Positions 16,187-60,698 of a DNA stretch of 64,000 bases are shown here, piece after piece (positions within the stretch are counted from its first letter, which is position 1; every line of letters starts with the position of its first letter). Position numbers and translations under genes: made by a program. Source of the DNA: Tildeniella nuda ZEHNDER 1965/U140 (lineage in GTDB: Bacteria > Cyanobacteriota > Cyanobacteriia > Leptolyngbyales > Leptolyngbyaceae); assembly GCA_019358895.1 (NCBI GenBank), contig JAHHIG010000001.1:496001-560000 (forward strand), given 5' to 3'. The notes under the pieces are model-generated. The model ran no database searches. It saw nothing but the letters and a program-made list of their open reading frames with translations, and was not told where the DNA came from.

Positions 16187-18031
16187 GTGACGGTAAGCAG
16201 AATTGGTTTGTCTGGATGGCTATGGAGTGCTGCGGTTTTAGCAGGCGCTTTCACAGCCGCGATCGCAGCATCAAAGGCAGTGGCAGCACCCGATAAGGCA
16301 GTCATGGCGCAAACTGCCTTATCAGGAAGTGCCGATCGCTTCACTCTGACCGCACTTGATGACACGCTAGACGCGATCGCAGACGTGGATTCAACAACCC
16401 TCGATCAAGTCACGTCCGTCTCGCAGCTTTCAGACGTAAAACCTACCGACTGGGCATTTCAGGCATTACAGTCACTGGTCGAGCGTTACGGATGCCTTGT
16501 GGGCTACCCTGACCAAACCTATCGGGGCAATCGATCGCTAACCCGGTACGAATTTGCCGCCGGACTCAACGCCTGTCTCGATCGCGTGAATGAACTCATT
16601 GCAGCAGGCACTGCCGACCTGGTGAAAAAAGAAGACCTGGTGGCGCTCCAAAAGATGCAGGAAGAGTTTGCGACCGAACTGGCAGTGCTGCGTGGTCGCA
16701 TGGGTAGCCTGGAGGCGCGGACTGTGACCCTTGAAAAACAACAATTTTCGGCGACAACGCGCCTGAACGTGTTGACCTCCTTGAACTTGAGTCAGGCATT
16801 TGCGTCGGGTGATGTCAGAGCCGAGGGCATTCCGATCGCGGGTTCCCTACCAGCGGCTCGTCTGGCATTACGGCTGCCCAACCCTGCTACAGGTCAGTTG
16901 GAACCAGTAGTGACGACGACCACTCGTAATCCTGAAACGACCTTCAGCCAATCGACCTACTTGATTCTGACTTCTTCCTTCTCTGGCAACGATGCGCTGA
17001 CGACGATTCTGGCTGCTGGCAACGGCAGTCCTCCCTCCAGTGTGTTTAGCTCGGCGGGGTTTGCCAGCACCTTTGGTGTGCCCTATGCCGACTCTAACCC
17101 GGTGAATCCGCTCTCCGCCAACAGTGTGGGCTTGTTTGAGTTGAAGTACAGCTTTCCCGTTGGCAATGCGGTTCGCTTTGTCGTCGGTCCGCGCATTCTG
17201 GCGTTTCGGCATTTTGATATCAACCCCTATACCAATGTGGTCGCTGGTGCCAGTGGATTGAACTCCTATCAAAGCACGCTGGCAAACAGTGGGCTGTCGG
17301 GCGCAGGGGCGATCGTCAGTTGGGATATCAGTCCCAAGCTGGTATTTCAAGCGGGCTACCTGGCACGCAACGACGCGTCGCTACAGTACTTCGGAGGAGA
17401 TGGTCCAGCGAATCCATCGCGGGGACTGTTCAATGGCTCCTATTCCGTTCTGGCAGAGTTAGCCTACTCGCCCACGTCTCAAATTACGCTTCGCTTTTTG
17501 TATACCCGCGCCCATCTGCAAACGCCACCCGCAAGCACATTGCCCCTTCCCTTTTTCCTCACGAACTCAATTAGAGGGGTGGTCGATGATGGCTTTAGCG
17601 GTCGCTTAAATGACATCGACTCGGACAACTTTGTGTTTAACTTTGATTGGACGTTGACCCCGAATCTAGCTCTGTTTGGGCGCTATTCCTACAGCCACTC
17701 TGACCTTGATCCCATCAATCCTCTCATTGCGGGTGGGTCTGCCAAGGTGGAAGCGTTTCAACTGGGTCTGGCGTTTCCTGATGTTGGCAAAAAAGGGGCG
17801 TTAGGCACCGTGTCAGTCGTCGTGCCGTTTAACATTTTGTCGGGTCGCCAATTTTTCGTGGCAGGCTATGGTGATGGTGGCACGGAGGTCAATCTGGAAG
17901 CCGCCTACTTTTACCCCCTGAACGACAATATTGGGATTGTGCCAACGTTTTTTGCCACGTTTAATGCCAATAATTTCAGCGGCAACCCGACTGTGTTTGG
18001 TACAGTCTTGAGAACCCAATTTCTGTTTTAA
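16187..18031 (+). CDS. SLH-domain OprB-family porin (iron uptake porin type)
   Basis: 614 residues from GTG 16187, 8 nt after AGGAG (16174-16178). A signal peptide (WLWSAAVLAGAFTAAIAASKAVA) is followed by one SLH domain (VSQLSDVKPTDWAFQALQSLVERYGCLVGYPDQTYRG... split here; about 80-140) that anchors the outer membrane to peptidoglycan. A coiled coil comes next (KKEDLVALQKMQEEFATELAVLRGRM), then an OprB barrel ending in Phe (TVLRTQFLF). This is the common major outer-membrane porin layout of cyanobacteria (Som/slr1908 type), involved in solute and inorganic ion passage. The length is somewhat above the usual 530-570. Confidence 0.9.
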   Translation: MTVSRIGLSGWLWSAAVLAGAFTAAIAASKAVAAPDKAVMAQTALSGSADRFTLTALDDTLDAIADVDSTTLDQVTSVSQLSDVKPTDWAFQALQSLVERYGCLVGYPDQTYRGNRSLTRYEFAAGLNACLDRVNELIAAGTADLVKKEDLVALQKMQEEFATELAVLRGRMGSLEARTVTLEKQQFSATTRLNVLTSLNLSQAFASGDVRAEGIPIAGSLPAARLALRLPNPATGQLEPVVTTTTRNPETTFSQSTYLILTSSFSGNDALTTILAAGNGSPPSSVFSSAGFASTFGVPYADSNPVNPLSANSVGLFELKYSFPVGNAVRFVVGPRILAFRHFDINPYTNVVAGASGLNSYQSTLANSGLSGAGAIVSWDISPKLVFQAGYLARNDASLQYFGGDGPANPSRGLFNGSYSVLAELAYSPTSQITLRFLYTRAHLQTPPASTLPLPFFLTNSIRGVVDDGFSGRLNDIDSDNFVFNFDWTLTPNLALFGRYSYSHSDLDPINPLIAGGSAKVEAFQLGLAFPDVGKKGALGTVSVVVPFNILSGRQFFVAGYGDGGTEVNLEAAYFYPLNDNIGIVPTFFATFNANNFSGNPTVFGTVLRTQFLF

Positions 18032-18053: not shown

Positions 18054-18124
18054 GTAGGTTGGGTTGAAGCATGAAACCCAACGTCTTCTGGGGTGTTGGG
18101 TTTCGTAACCTCAACCCAACCTAC
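18054..18124. repeat. Palindromic dispersed repeat (GTAGGTTGGGTT type), second copy
   Basis: GTAGGTTGGGTT at the left end and AACCCAACCTAC at the right end, with GAAACCCAACG and TGTTGGGTTTCG inside. It is very similar to the copy at 15406-15482 and fills the gap between the porin and kinase genes, where it could also act as a transcript-stabilising or terminating hairpin. Confidence 0.85.
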
Positions 18125-18150: not shown

Positions 18151-21100
18151 ATGGTTGCGATCGCTGGCTACGACGTGCTTGAAAAACTTTACGAGAGCAA
18201 TCGCTCTCTGGTTTACCGGGGAGAAAGCACATCTGAGCCGCGATCGCTCATTCTTAAGCTCATGCAGGCAGACTACCCCAGCCTGGAAGAACTGGGCAGA
18301 TATCGTCTGGAGTATGACATTCTCAACCGCCTCAACGGGGATGGCATCATCAGAGCTTATGACCTGGCTCCCCATCAAAACGGTCTGGTGCTAGTGCTGG
18401 AAGATTTTGGGGGCGAGTCTTTACAAAGCGTGCTTCGTTCACATCGCTTGAGCCTGGTGGCATTTTTGGAGCTGGCGATCGCCATTGCTGACAGTCTCGG
18501 CAGCGTGCATGCGGCAGATGTCATTCATAAAGACATCAATCCTGCCAACATCCTGCTCAATTCAACGTCTGGACAGGTCAAACTGATCGATTTTGGCAAT
18601 GCCACAGTGTTGTCCCGCGAAAACCCCACGATTCGCAGTCCTAACGTACTGGAAGGAACCCTGCCCTATCTCTCACCAGAGCAGACGGGTCGCATGAATC
18701 GTGCTCTGGATTACCGCACCGACTTCTATTCGCTGGGTGCCACGTTCTACGAATTATTGACAGGATCACCGCCCTTCGTCGTTGCTGATGCGATGGAGTT
18801 GATTCACTGCCATCTGGCAAAACAACCCGAACCGCCCGATCGTCAAGCGTCCGCCGCCACTCCCATTCCCCAGGCTGTTTCAGACCTGGTGATGAAACTG
18901 CTGGCAAAGAATGCCGAAGACCGCTATCAGAGTGCCTATGGCATTAAAGCCGATCTGCAACGCTGTTTAGAGCAACTGCGTAACGATGGGGCGATCGCTC
19001 CCTTTGCCCTGGCACAGCAGGATGCCTCCGGCAAATTCCAAATTCCTCAAAAGCTGTACGGACGCGAAGCAGAAGTGGCATTGCTCTTGGCAGCGTTTGA
19101 GCGGGTGGCAGGGAGTGGGGAGGCAGAAGGCGGGAGGCAGAAGGCAGAAGGGGGAATCGGGAGTCGGGAGTCGGGAGTCGGGAATTGGGATCAAGAAAGT
19201 CAGAAAGATCTGCCACTAGCAACTAACAACCAACCACTAACAACTGCTTCAACTCAAAACTCAAAACTTTCTAGCGTAGCGGCGCAAAGCGCTACTCAAA
19301 ACTCTTTCCCACTCCCCACTCCCCACTCCCCACTCCCCACTCCCTCACGCAGCGAACTCATGCTCGTTTCAGGCTATTCCGGCATCGGTAAATCAGCGCT
19401 GGTGAGTGAGATCCACAAACCCATCACCCGTCAAAATGGGTACTTCATCACTGGGAAATATGATCAGTTTCAGCGCAACATTCCTTACTCTGCCCTGATT
19501 CAAGCCTTTCAGGAACTGATTCGCCAACTGCTGACCGAGAGCCAGGAACAGATCGATCGCTGGCGATCGCACCTGCTCAAGGCGCTGGGTCACAACGGGC
19601 AGATTGTGATTGATGTCATTCCAGAGATGGCACTAATTATTGGTGAGCAGGTAACGGTTACTGAACTGGGTGCCAGAGAAACGCAAAATCGATTTAACCT
19701 GGTGTTCCAGAAATTTATACGGGTATTCACACAACCGGAACATCCCCTTGTCATCTTTCTGGATGACTTGCAGTGGGCAGACTCTGCCTCGCTCAAACTG
19801 CTCAACCTGCTGCTGACGGCTCCTGGTAGTCGCCATCTCTTTTTGCTGGGAGCCTACCGCAGTAACGAGGCGAATGTGTCTCTGCTGATGAAGGCGATCG
19901 CAGAAATCCGCAAAGCAAACGTCACGATCAGCCAGATTGAGCTGTCGCCGCTGACTCTACCCACCATTACTCAGCTCATTGTTGATACCTTTGGCGACGT
20001 AGCAACCGCTCCACTCCTGGCAGAACTGGTACTTCAGGTGACGGGGGGCAACCCCTTTTTTATCAACGAGTTTTTGAAGTCTCTTTATGAGGAGGGGTTA
20101 CTCAACTTTGATGAGCAACAGGGGATCTGGCACTGGGACTTAGCCCAGATCCGTGCCGCGCAAGTCCCAGACAACGTGGTGGAGTTGATGACGGGCAAGC
20201 TGCAAAAGCTCCACCCCAGAACCCAACAGGCACTCAAGTTAGCGTCTTGCATTGGCAATCAGTTTGACTTGCGGACGCTGGCAATTATTTCCAAGCAGCC
20301 TCAGGCGACGATCGCTGCCGACCTGCGAGAAAGCGTCAATGAAGGGTTGATCTTGCCGTTGGGCGATAATTACAAATTTATCAACCTTGAAGCGCAGTCA
20401 TCAGAGGATCTGGAGCTTGGGTTCAAGTTTCTTCACGATCGCGTCCAGCAGGTTGCCTATGCCCTCATTCCAGAATCTGCCAAGCAGAGTATCCATCGCG
20501 AAATCGGGCAGTTGTTGCTCGCACACACTCGTCCAGAGTCACGCGAAGAGAAGATTTTTGACATTGTGAACCAGCTCAACATTGGTATCAGCCTTACCAC
20601 CGTTCAGTCCCAGCGCGAAGAACTGGCTACCCTCAACCTGACGGCAGGCAAGAAAGCAAAAGATTCCGCCGCCTACGAAACGGCTGTGCGGTATTTGTTG
20701 ACGGGCATTGACCTTTTGGGAGCCGAAAGCTGGCAGCAGCAGTACCCGTTGACCCTGGAACTTCACGAAGAAGCGGCAGAATCAGCTTACCTGAACGGCG
20801 ACTTTCCCGAAACCGAACGCCTGGTCGAGCGGATTCTGCACCATGCCAAAACTGTCCTCGATTGCGTGCAGGCATATCAGGTTAGAGCGGGTGCTTACAC
20901 GGCTCAAAACAATATGGATGGCGCACTGGACACCATCATCAGCGCGATGGAGCGTCTAGGCGAACCGATTCCGCGTAACCCCAGTCGTCTCAGAGTGGGG
21001 TTAGAACTGCTGCGAACCCACTTCTGGGTGGTGGGCAGGCGATCGACCCACGAGCTGGAAAACCTGCCGCCGATGACCGATCCGTACAAACTGGCGGCGA

Positions 21101-23748
21101 TCAAACTGGCAGGCTCTGGTGGGTTGGCATCCGTCAACGCTGCTCCCTTACTGATTGCGCTCCTGGCACTGCGGGTCGTGAATTTAGTGATGCGCTACGG
21201 CAGTTCATCTATGTCTACCGTGCAGGGGGTCGCTTACGGGGTCATGCTGCGGGTGGGGTTAGCCGATATTGACGGCGCGTATCGGTTTGCCCAAATCAGC
21301 CTGCGACTCCTCGATCGTCTGGACGATCGCTACTATAAAACGCTGACGGTCATTGCCTACGAATCCTGTATTCGCCACTGGAAAGAACCGCTGCGCCTCT
21401 CGTTACCCGTCTTGCTCAACGCCTATCATGAAGGCTTGGAGTTGGGCAATCAAGAGTATGCTGCGCTTGCCGTCTCTGTATACTGCATTCACCAACTGTT
21501 CTTGGGAGAATCACTCTCAACAGTGGTAGCGGATTTTCAGGCATATACATCCCAGCTTTTGCGGTTTAACCAGGAGGCGATCGTCTACCAGATGCAGCCC
21601 TGGCATCAACTGGTATTGAATTTGCAGGGTAGCGCGGCGGAACCAACCCGCTTGGTTGACACAGTGTTCAATGAAGCGGAACTGCTGCCCTTTTTCGTCG
21701 AGAACCGTCTGGGCATTCCACTGTTCTACAGCCATATTGCGAAAGCCATGTGGTTCTATCACAGCGGCGACTATGCTGGCTCCTTGCAGGCGGCAAAACT
21801 GGCAAAACCACTAGAAGAATCGGCACCCGTCACACCGGGCTATGTCAATCGCTATTTCTACGAATCGCTTGCCTGTTTGGCGCTGTGTTCTCAGGCATCC
21901 AAACCATTACAGCGGCGCTATTTGCGTCAGGTTGCCCGCAACCAGCGTCAGGCAAAACGTTGGGCGCGGTATTGCCCCGAAAATTATCAGCACCGTCACG
22001 ATCTGGTAGAAGCAGAACGTTTGCGGGTGATGGGGCACTATGCGGAAGCGGTTGTCTACTACGATCGCGCCATTCACGGAGCCAGCACCCAAGACTACAT
22101 CAACGAAGTGGCATTAGGGAATGAATTGGCGGCTAAGTTTTTCATCAGCCTGGAACGCGAAAAACTGGCTCAGCTTTATCTGTTGGATGCCCGTCATGCC
22201 TATCTACGCTGGGGTGCAACGTTCAAAGTCGAGGCGTTGGAGGCTGCTTATCCGCAGTTGCGCGACCCGTTGCGGGTAACTCAAAGAGATCGCAAGCTCG
22301 CCAGTGACTCCGCTACGATCCCAACTAAAATATCTGCCTCTGGTTCAACGAGTAGCCGTTCTGGCTCCGAGCTTGACCTGAGAACAGTAGTGGAAGCGGC
22401 GCAGGCAATTTCCGGCGAAATCGTGTTCGAGCACTTACTGGCAAAGCTGTTGAAACTGGCAATGGAAAATGCTGGCGCTCAAAAAGGCTATCTCTTGCTG
22501 TCCGATGGGAGTGAATTGAAGATCGAGGCGGAGGGGCAAATCGATCGCGAGGAACCCATCTTAGTCCAATCGCGATCGCTCGTTACCATCCAGACGTTAC
22601 CTGTTTCCATCATTCACTACGTCCAACGCACACGAGAAAATGTGGTGTTGGGAAATGCCGCAGATGAGGGCATCTTTACCACCGATCCTTATATTCTTCA
22701 GACGCAGCCGCGATCGATTCTTTGTTCGCCCATTCTCAACCAGGGCAACCTGACGGGCATTCTCTATTTGGAAAACACTCTGGCAGCCGATACGTTTACG
22801 CCAGAACGTTTGACGGTGCTCAACATCCTGTCAGCCCAAGCCGCGATCGCGCTCGAAAATGCTTCCTTCTATCGGACGTTAGAACAAAAAGTTGAAGAAC
22901 GCACCGTGCAGCTTGCTCAGGCGAATGAGGAAATCACCTTACTCAATCAGCGGCTGCAATCAGAAAATCTGCGAATGGGAGCCGAACTCGATATTACACG
23001 ACAACTCCAGCAAATTATTCTGCCCAAACAGGAGGAACTGAGCGAGATTCCAGGCTTAGACATTGCTGGCTTTATGGAACCTGCCGATGAAGTCGGTGGC
23101 GATTACTACGATGTCTTGCATCAAGATGGTGCCATCAAAATTGGGATTGGCGATGTCACCGGGCATGGCTTGGAAAGTGGCATCCTGATGTTGATGGTGC
23201 AAACCGCCGTCCGCACGCTCTTAACGAACCAAGAAACCGATGCCGCTCGCTTTTTAACCACGCTCAATCGTGTGATTTACGACAATGCCAAACGGATGCA
23301 GTCCGATCGCAATTTGACTCTGACACTCGTAGACTATCGATCGGGTCATTTGAAATTGAGTGGGCAACATGAGGATGTGCTGATTGTGCGGGCTGATGGC
23401 GCGATCGAGCGAGTGAACACAATCAATCTAGGCTTTCCATTGGGGCTAGTAGATGATATTGCCGAATTTGTTGCACAAGTGGAATTGCAATTACACCCTG
23501 GTGATGGCATTGTGCTTTATACCGATGGCATCACAGAAGCTGCCAATAGTGCGGATGTACTCTATGGCATCGAGCGCCTCTGTCAAGTCGTCTCCCAGCA
23601 CTGGAACCAGCCCGCGATCGTCATTAAAGCAGCCGTGATTGAAGACGTACGCCGCCATATTGGTCAACAGAAAATTTTTGATGACATTACGTTACTCATC
23701 ATTAAACAGAAGGCTCAAGCGGTACTTCAGGAAAATGAAACGACGTGA
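18151..23748 (+). CDS. Ser/Thr protein kinase - AAA ATPase - GAF - SpoIIE phosphatase multidomain protein
   Basis: 1865 residues. Domains in order: (1) protein kinase, about 8-270, with HKDINPAN (catalytic Asp131) and DFG (Asp147), but a poorly conserved Gly loop; (2) a low-complexity insert, about 316-401, read from heptamer repeats; (3) AAA-16-like ATPase with P-loop GYSGIGKS (Lys414) and FLDDLQWAD as Walker B; (4) a long helical TPR-like region (about 800-1400); (5) GAF, about 1430-1580; (6) a coiled coil (VEERTVQLAQANEEITLL); (7) SpoIIE/PP2C phosphatase, about 1640-1860, with EVGGDYYD (Asp1651 region) and GDVTGHG. Most relatives of this PknB-AAA-GAF group end in a histidine kinase; here a Ser phosphatase takes that place. 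Likely a soluble signalling hub. RBS-like GGAAAAGG precedes ATG 18151. Confidence 0.9.
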   Translation: MVAIAGYDVLEKLYESNRSLVYRGESTSEPRSLILKLMQADYPSLEELGRYRLEYDILNRLNGDGIIRAYDLAPHQNGLVLVLEDFGGESLQSVLRSHRLSLVAFLELAIAIADSLGSVHAADVIHKDINPANILLNSTSGQVKLIDFGNATVLSRENPTIRSPNVLEGTLPYLSPEQTGRMNRALDYRTDFYSLGATFYELLTGSPPFVVADAMELIHCHLAKQPEPPDRQASAATPIPQAVSDLVMKLLAKNAEDRYQSAYGIKADLQRCLEQLRNDGAIAPFALAQQDASGKFQIPQKLYGREAEVALLLAAFERVAGSGEAEGGRQKAEGGIGSRESGVGNWDQESQKDLPLATNNQPLTTASTQNSKLSSVAAQSATQNSFPLPTPHSPLPTPSRSELMLVSGYSGIGKSALVSEIHKPITRQNGYFITGKYDQFQRNIPYSALIQAFQELIRQLLTESQEQIDRWRSHLLKALGHNGQIVIDVIPEMALIIGEQVTVTELGARETQNRFNLVFQKFIRVFTQPEHPLVIFLDDLQWADSASLKLLNLLLTAPGSRHLFLLGAYRSNEANVSLLMKAIAEIRKANVTISQIELSPLTLPTITQLIVDTFGDVATAPLLAELVLQVTGGNPFFINEFLKSLYEEGLLNFDEQQGIWHWDLAQIRAAQVPDNVVELMTGKLQKLHPRTQQALKLASCIGNQFDLRTLAIISKQPQATIAADLRESVNEGLILPLGDNYKFINLEAQSSEDLELGFKFLHDRVQQVAYALIPESAKQSIHREIGQLLLAHTRPESREEKIFDIVNQLNIGISLTTVQSQREELATLNLTAGKKAKDSAAYETAVRYLLTGIDLLGAESWQQQYPLTLELHEEAAESAYLNGDFPETERLVERILHHAKTVLDCVQAYQVRAGAYTAQNNMDGALDTIISAMERLGEPIPRNPSRLRVGLELLRTHFWVVGRRSTHELENLPPMTDPYKLAAIKLAGSGGLASVNAAPLLIALLALRVVNLVMRYGSSSMSTVQGVAYGVMLRVGLADIDGAYRFAQISLRLLDRLDDRYYKTLTVIAYESCIRHWKEPLRLSLPVLLNAYHEGLELGNQEYAALAVSVYCIHQLFLGESLSTVVADFQAYTSQLLRFNQEAIVYQMQPWHQLVLNLQGSAAEPTRLVDTVFNEAELLPFFVENRLGIPLFYSHIAKAMWFYHSGDYAGSLQAAKLAKPLEESAPVTPGYVNRYFYESLACLALCSQASKPLQRRYLRQVARNQRQAKRWARYCPENYQHRHDLVEAERLRVMGHYAEAVVYYDRAIHGASTQDYINEVALGNELAAKFFISLEREKLAQLYLLDARHAYLRWGATFKVEALEAAYPQLRDPLRVTQRDRKLASDSATIPTKISASGSTSSRSGSELDLRTVVEAAQAISGEIVFEHLLAKLLKLAMENAGAQKGYLLLSDGSELKIEAEGQIDREEPILVQSRSLVTIQTLPVSIIHYVQRTRENVVLGNAADEGIFTTDPYILQTQPRSILCSPILNQGNLTGILYLENTLAADTFTPERLTVLNILSAQAAIALENASFYRTLEQKVEERTVQLAQANEEITLLNQRLQSENLRMGAELDITRQLQQIILPKQEELSEIPGLDIAGFMEPADEVGGDYYDVLHQDGAIKIGIGDVTGHGLESGILMLMVQTAVRTLLTNQETDAARFLTTLNRVIYDNAKRMQSDRNLTLTLVDYRSGHLKLSGQHEDVLIVRADGAIERVNTINLGFPLGLVDDIAEFVAQVELQLHPGDGIVLYTDGITEAANSADVLYGIERLCQVVSQHWNQPAIVIKAAVIEDVRRHIGQQKIFDDITLLIIKQKAQAVLQENETT
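19096..19356. repeat. Composite heptamer repeat inside the kinase gene
   Basis: From left to right: GGCAGAAG-type units (about 19110-19155), GGGAGTC units (about 19160-19190), a spacer with AACTCAAAACTC, and ACTCCCC units (about 19310-19350). The same classes fill intergenic gaps elsewhere in the window. Because the array contains no stop in the gene's frame, it is translated as about 85 residues (for example RESGVGNW and PLPTPHSPLPTP) between kinase and ATPase domains. Confidence 0.85.
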
Positions 23749-28711: not shown

Positions 28712-28766
28712 CTGCCTCCTGCCTTCTGCCTTCTGCCCCCTGCCTTCTGCCCCTGCCTTCTCACTT
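28712..28766. repeat. Heptamer repeat tract (CTGCCTT type)
   Basis: About seven degenerate CTGCCTT/CTGCCCC units, the reverse complement of the AGGCAGA class, lie between the convergent AEC and glyA genes. The tract touches the last codons of glyA. Confidence 0.8.
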
Positions 28767-30574: not shown

Positions 30575-30766
30575 GGCAGAAGGCTAAAGGCAGAAGGCAG
30601 GAGGCAGAAGGCAGAAGGCAGAAGCTAATACATCTCACACCTCACACCTCACTTCCGCCAAGAGGCTAAAGGCTAAAGCTGAAGGAGTTTTGGTTATGAA
30701 TTGTAGTGGTGAGAAGATTGCTGACGGCTGATAGCTGACGGCTGATAGCTGACCGCTGACCGCTCA
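30575..30766. repeat. Composite heptamer repeat, AGGCAGA and GCTGATA classes
   Basis: AGGCAGA-type units (30575-30615) run into a unique-looking core AAGCTAATAC ... CTCACACCTCAC ... TTCCGCCAAGAGG (to 30665). After a short gap, GCTGACG/GCTGATA/GCTGACC units occupy 30720-30763. The core is found again, reverse-complemented, at 53450-53500. No gene is apparent between 30549 and 30833. Confidence 0.85.
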
Positions 30767-32329: not shown

Positions 32330-32602
<273 letters not shown>

Positions 32603-43368: not shown

Positions 43369-43474
43369 GTGGGGGAGCAGAGGAGGCAAGGGGAGCAGGG
43401 GAGCAGGGGAGCAGTTTTGAGTTGCGAATTTTGAATTGCTGCTGACCGCTGATAGCTGACCGCTGACTGCTAAT
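43369..43474. repeat. Composite heptamer repeat (GGGGAGCAG and GCTGACCGCTGATA classes)
   Basis: Read on the - strand: GCGGTCA-type units, spacer AGCAGCAATTCAAAA ... CGCAACTCAAAA, then CTGCTCCC units. The same order and almost the same spacer recur at 60509-60698 on the + strand. It lies directly before the start codon of the 42317-43333 gene. Confidence 0.88.
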
Positions 43475-60508: not shown

Positions 60509-60698
60509 GGCGGTCAGCGGTCAGCTATCAGCGGTCAGCGGTCAGCAGCAATTCAAAACCCGCAACTCAAACCTTCTCCCCTGCTCCCCTACTCCCTCTG
60601 CCTCCCCTACTTCCCCTGCCTCCCCTGCCTCCCTAGCCTCCCCTGCTCCCCTGCTCCCCTACTCCCTCTGCCTCCCCTGCTTCCCCTGCTCCCCTACC
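60509..60698. repeat. Composite heptamer repeat (GCGGTCA, spacer, CTCCCCTG)
   Basis: GCGGTCA-type units (60509-60546), spacer GCAGCAATTCAAAA ... CGCAACTCAAA, then about 20 CTCCCCT/GCCTCCC units up to 60698. The direct counterpart on the other strand is 43369-43474. It separates the cytochrome b gene from its partner oxidoreductase gene by 202 bp. Confidence 0.9.

Follow-up and report, generated by a model that had tools for sequence, protein, structure and literature searches.

The 64,000-nt stretch of the Tildeniella nuda ZEHNDER 1965/U140 genome analyzed here (positions 496,001–560,000 of contig JAHHIG010000001.1; referred to as the window) contains an open reading frame (ORF; 18151–23748, + strand) that runs without interruption and encodes a signalling protein of 1865 aa. 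As indicated by ORF and Pfam analysis, its domains are arranged in the order Pkinase – AAA_16 – GAF – SpoIIE. The Pkinase domain (residues 10–260; 18178–18930, + strand; PF00069, E 2.7e-33) and the AAA_16 ATPase domain located downstream in the same frame (residues 400–565; 19348–19845, + strand; PF13191, E 2.6e-40) are separated by a linker containing an in-frame composite of heptamer repeats, while the C-terminal part of the protein carries the GAF (residues 1427–1568) and SpoIIE (residues 1659–1852) domains. The composite, termed here the insert, comprises 234 nt (19111–19344, + strand), i.e. 78 codons, corresponding to residues 321–398. Its limits were set by reading the sequence: it starts after ...GTGGCA and ends before TCACGCAGCGAACTC.

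The insert is built of GGCAGAA, GGGAGTC, TAACAAC, AACTCAA and CCCCACT heptamers and of a single 28-nt core that is not heptameric; a AACTCAAAACTC spacer was also recognized by sequence reading. Analysis with Tandem Repeats Finder (TRF) revealed GGGAGGCAGAAGGC, GGGAGTC and CCCACTC arrays at 19118–19190 and 19308–19344, with periods of 7 and 14. The left arm is formed by GGCAGAA-type heptamers (19118–19151, + strand; TRF), a family that is also found in intergenic regions of the window, at 28712–28761 and 30575–30624. It is followed by GGGAATC/GGGAGTC heptamers (19152–19190, + strand; TRF), whose five G-tracts on the coding strand have the potential to form a G-quadruplex, and by a TAACAAC-type stretch (19216–19246, + strand; sequence reading). 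AACAACT is a common non-coding heptamer elsewhere in this genome. The AACTCAA heptamer spacer (19251–19304, + strand) houses the core CTAGCGTAGCGGCGCAAAGCGCTACTCA (19271–19298, + strand), a hairpin resembling small dispersed repeats (SDRs), and heptamers of the same type surround most other copies of this core. The right arm consists of CCCCACT heptamers (19308–19344, + strand; TRF), which would be translated as PLPTPHS and are complementary to the beginning of the insert (GGGAGTGGGGAG).

An earlier note on this DNA had described a stop-free translation with a 7-residue PLPTPHS period, and both features were confirmed. In a six-frame check, the only frame open across the whole insert was the one in use, and the insert is predicted to encode the tryptic peptide DLPLATNNQPLTTASTQNSK. 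The period has an arithmetical explanation: since 7 and 3 are coprime, a stop-free heptamer specifies an identical heptapeptide in all three frames, three heptamers (21 nt) corresponding to 7 aa. The 7-residue period is therefore no evidence of design at the protein level, and the idea that the heptamers represent a coiled coil or a functional protein repeat was rejected. For the same reason, being stop-free in all three frames once it is stop-free in one, a heptamer is unusually apt for surviving inside genes.

A 235-nt segment covering the insert gave 75 significant matches within its own genome (itself included), more than would be expected by chance; the insert is repeat DNA. Together with the TRF analysis and sequence inspection, these matches bear out the statement of the earlier note that the coding DNA between the kinase and ATPase domains is made of heptamers. 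A pattern of three CCCCACT units (≤1 mismatch) was matched 280 times in the source genome (G000), 37–165 times in congeneric genomes and 199 times in G010, a genome of another genus; nearly all other genera searched gave zero or few matches, the exception being G033 (52). Arrays whose heptamers belong to these families or to similar ones, intergenic or near genes, occur in the window at 28712–28761, 30575–30764, 32331–32601, 43372–43414 and 60510–60695. Arrays were surveyed over 864 kb of the source genome (C9 1–400000, C11 1–400000 and the window). This survey identified 180 heptamer-type arrays, 49 of them lying wholly within predicted coding ORFs; under a stricter test, requiring a coding signal on both sides, 23 of the 180 were placed in coding frames. 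Since genes fill approximately 75% of the sequence and 23–49 of the 180 arrays are coding, the arrays are depleted in genes, yet far from absent. In Anabaena, 68% of related heptamer arrays are intergenic (PMC4692102).

The distribution of the 28-nt core was examined in seven congeneric genomes (≤2 mismatches), which contain 81 copies in total; a reversed control pattern gave 0 matches in the same genomes. Nearly all copies are flanked by AACTCAA heptamers in the same register, and this register (AACTC|..|CTCAA) hints at a target duplication of 3 bases, CTC. Forty-three of the 81 are located in long open frames with an overall coding signal, and 30 of these score > 4 on each flank separately. 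All 43 coding copies are in the AACTCAA orientation and are read in two phases, 36 in one (SKLSSVAAQSATQN) and 7 in the other (NSLAKRREALLKT); with two reading frames in use, what is conserved is the DNA rather than the peptide. According to Pfam, the hosts include MetH, MutS2-type MutS, LigA, Mfd (two species), ABC-F (two species), a RadA-like protein, NAD synthetase, PanC/cytidylate kinase, MiaA, tocopherol cyclase, AnmK, hydantoinase A/B (two species), a CobB/CobQ-type protein, decarboxylases, Lnt and others, and the core is frequently placed between two Pfam domains of the host. Among the 38 copies outside coding frames, 14 lie between co-oriented coding stretches, where the two orientations are equally frequent (7:7, compared to 43:0 for coding copies; Fisher p 1.3e-5). 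Inspection by eye of these 14 intergenic cases revealed no gene broken by the core, the surroundings resembling ordinary gene ends or starts. One stem pair of the core shows a two-sided change (GCGC..GCGC to GCAC..GTGC) in 6 of the 81 copies and one-sided changes in others.

The in-frame insert of the kinase is not isolated; this genus contains many such cases. A WD40 protein (G000 C11:346544–351124, – strand) has five congeneric orthologues, all long open frames (1438–1526 aa), in which about nine variable blocks can be distinguished; these are mostly heptamer-derived, many of them lie between WD40 blades, and their heptamers differ per species. A GH116 glycosidase (G000 C9:268557–271481, + strand) contains four in-frame heptamer blocks that differ among six congeners, its orthologues being intact, and several of the four are reduced to almost nothing in other genera, as judged from alignment coordinates. 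In the variable blocks of these two families and of the kinase, identity at a lag of 7 nt reached 0.452, compared to 0.2675±0.004 after codon shuffling (maximum 0.280 in 500), and was approximately 0.245 in the conserved parts. LigA and NAD synthetase likewise carry repeat-derived loops at fixed sites, with heptamer families switching between species. One NAD synthetase loop is composed of CAGCCAT and AACTCAA heptamers in G000, G006 and G002, of AAAGGCT/ATCCTTT-type heptamers in G004 and G001, and of GAGGGCG/CCCTCAT-type heptamers in G010; in G000 the AACTCAA array encloses the core, which the array of G006 and G002 lacks.

Orthologues of the kinase were searched at the order level in 42 genomes. 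The aligned linker block, 79 aa long in the source protein, is shortened to 20 aa in the congener G003 (78% identity); it consists of 48 aa of a different heptamer composite in G010 (75% identity) and of 40 aa devoid of heptamers in the outgroup G057 (63% identity). This agrees with the earlier note, which had expected the insert to be absent from orthologues or to differ in length there. In the wider family, 36 of 66 linkers show a YGRE-to-GYSGIGK spacing of 24 residues, so that a very short linker is the norm. Linkers derived from repeats were also identified at this point in more distant members: G002 (GGGAGTGGGCAGGAATCTCTCCCCACTCCC), G036 (GGGAGTCGGGAATC...) and FACHB-502 (GGGAATCGGGAATC...ACACCCTACACCC). 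The content of the linker differs in distant orthologues, none of which repeats the insert of the source protein. Nor is the gene split in two at the repeat: in the source gene and its relatives alike, Pkinase precedes and AAA_16 follows the linker within a single uninterrupted frame. The earlier proposal that a repeat element entered the linker and was tolerated holds as regards tolerance; entry in this particular lineage is one of two possibilities compatible with the short linker of G003, and many comparable cases exist.

Three further observations concern relatives of this kinase. A paralogous kinase of G010 (C1:3677500–3680500) has a heptamer insert (STQNSSPLPTPHSPLPTP) just ahead of IPEALSNIVMKLMAKNAE, apparently within the kinase C-lobe and not in the interdomain linker. 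The homologous linker of Coleofasciculus sp. LEGE 07092 is a different repeat-like sequence (SPPIPLLVGEGSPTSP...GGLEGLGGLG), which suggests that this site may also accept other repeats. Close relatives of the kinase (55–59% identity) are present in giant sulfur bacteria, including Candidatus Parabeggiatoa, from a lineage in which heptamer repeats are likewise known, and exchange of the kinase between these bacteria and cyanobacteria is possible.

An AlphaFold model of residues 1–640, built with 22 aligned sequences, gave predicted local distance difference test (pLDDT) values below 50 for residues 323–396 (block means 25–46) and mostly 75–97 for the two flanking domains. The preceding helix stops at residue 320 and the first strand of the ATPase starts at 402; the insert is thus predicted to be a disordered linker between well-folded domains. 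As RNA, the insert is predicted to form a long hairpin with imperfect pairing (z –4.3), and the insert of G010 gave z –6.2. The notion that all inserts are hairpins was unsupported as a rule: 54 variable blocks had a median z of –0.22, compared to 0.19 in 80 controls (p 0.19).

Dispersed repeat DNA is present in frame in the loops and linkers of these proteins, and it changes between species at fixed sites. We interpret this as the colonization of protein loops by cyanobacterial repeat DNA resembling SDRs and short tandemly repeated repetitive (STRR) sequences, filtered for versions that are free of stops and keep the frame. For the kinase, the explanation we favor, with a probability of roughly 0.78, is that the insert is a composite of dispersed, mostly intergenic STRR-type heptamers with a nested SDR-like hairpin core, located in a permissive loop and translated as a disordered linker. 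Such repeat DNA would have entered the kinase–ATPase loop or grown within it in three steps: (i) seeding at many sites by insertion of a small mobile hairpin or by template switching, (ii) growth, shrinkage and swapping of the arrays via slippage and recombination between copies, and (iii) selection against stops, lengths not divisible by three and hits to folded cores. Swapping is suggested by the different heptamer families that the same sites carry in each species. The pattern seen is that which step (iii) would leave, its survivors being located in loops and in the stop-free orientation. The peptide sequence appears incidental because genes differ in which of two frames of the core they use. 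It also seems rather probable that heptamer and hairpin DNA continually invades and replaces itself in the loops of conserved proteins, essential ones included, dozens of loops per genome then being turning-over parasitic or structural DNA whose amino acids are incidental.

Several points weigh against this explanation. The translation of the insert is deduced from the nucleotide sequence, and the mobility of the core from its distribution. Since the short linker of G003 may be a degenerate remnant, it is not a clean empty site, and no such site was found among the orthologues of the kinase; both a recent insertion and turnover of an older insert would fit. The 43:0 sense orientation of coding core copies is partly definitional, because the other strand carries stops. 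Finally, coding status was judged from open frames, from Pfam matches and from a codon score devised for this analysis, and no curated annotation was used.

An alternative is that a simple repeat was born and expanded in place in a slippage-prone, low-complexity linker, without any mobile or dispersed element. Heptamer arrays do vary in unit number, and heptamers are the favored long repeat size in cyanobacteria, which has been ascribed to polymerase slippage (PMC4692102, PMC4679880). However, the insert unites several heptamer families with a non-repetitive 28-nt core, all of them present elsewhere in the genome and in an order that recurs at other loci; as local slippage imports no dispersed core, we regard this origin as unlikely. 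It is very improbable that the linker is a functional, Pro-rich and flexible segment maintained by selection at the protein level, perhaps for protein–protein docking. Its constant position between two domains and the recurrence of the PLPTPHS peptide in many proteins would agree with such a role, whereas the switching of content at the same site between unrelated heptamer families in sister species, the translation of the same core DNA in two frames, and the linkers of only a few residues in many relatives would not.

Misassembly, for which repeats are well known, is hardly to be credited at a site internal to a 724-kb contig, where the frame is intact over 234 nt; moreover, other genomes, G010 (3 contigs) among them, contain comparable in-frame inserts. 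The presence of such elements in essential enzymes, for example LigA and NAD synthetase, could also suggest removal before or during protein synthesis by splicing, translational bypass or an intein-like process. We consider this the least probable account of all: preservation of the frame and of freedom from stops would be needless if the element were removed, its content is not conserved and, in the case of the kinase, a loop is predicted at its position. A long conserved sequence resembling an intron or intein was absent, although no search for intron RNA families was made.

The favored explanation, colonization of loops by dispersed repeats, relates the inserts to several known systems. STRR sequences are composed of 7-bp units (PMC2670836). 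The repeats described here share with them tandem 7-bp units (TRF periods of 7 and 14; excess of lag-7 identity), a dispersed distribution mainly outside genes (280 matches for one unit type; 23 of 180 arrays coding), hairpin formation and the occurrence of several unit families per genome. STRR heptamers were reportedly found by Vioque in 1997 within the RNase P RNA gene of heterocystous cyanobacteria. The difference is that in the present case whole composites lie in frame within conserved proteins. SDRs, reportedly described by Elhai et al. in 2008, are hairpins of about 21–27 nt embedded in tandem heptamers. The core identified here (25–28 nt, hairpin, 81 copies in 7 genomes, nearly all AACTCAA-flanked) is likened to them by their general description and not by sequence similarity to a named SDR family; the in-frame location of about half of its copies is a new emphasis.

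Rickettsia palindromic elements (RPEs) are found in frame in many unrelated genes, with about half of the copies in ORFs and in places compatible with the protein fold (reviewed in PMC10969869). The inserts resemble RPEs in this respect, 43 of the 81 core copies lying in frame in a wide range of unrelated genes. Unlike RPEs, which are approximately 150 bp long and encode a conserved peptide, they are mosaics of heptamers that vary in length and switch between repeat families, with a core giving different peptides in two frames; a strong hairpin was found in the G000 and G010 kinase inserts and is not general. Because size, conserved peptide and palindromy fail to match, the inserts are not classified as RPEs: they work like these elements but are not members of the group. 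The GGGAATC/GGGAGTC units, with their five tracts, correspond in type and number to the G-quadruplex heptamers GGGNATC and GGGGA(C/T)T of Xanthomonas and Nostoc; here, however, the coding strand is the G-rich one and the array lies inside an interdomain linker. With 68% of the Anabaena arrays being intergenic, a sizeable part of them is not (PMC4692102). In Beggiatoaceae, ORFs occasionally contain TAACTGA repeats that are likewise translated as heptapeptides; these are chiefly located at the ends of proteins or in hypothetical ones (PMC4679880), whereas those reported here are internal to conserved multidomain proteins. No description of the in-frame heptamer pattern in cyanobacterial genes was found in the open-access literature; subscription literature was outside the search, so priority is uncertain.

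The idea of selfish DNA in coding genes, known from Rickettsia, is thereby extended to free-living cyanobacteria, in which the DNA is of another type, namely heptamer mosaics. The same loops carrying different repeat families in sister species form a natural series in which the tolerance of loops can be measured and the spread of very small repeats traced. Heptamer repeats should not be regarded as purely intergenic, and low-complexity linkers of this kind should not be taken for functional motifs.

Analysis of the region immediately 5′ of the kinase start revealed an inverted repeat (GTAGGTTGGGTTGAAG...CTCAACCCAACCTAC; 18054–18124), located between a porin-like gene (16187–18031) and the kinase, which resembles a miniature inverted-repeat transposable element (MITE) or another dispersed palindrome.
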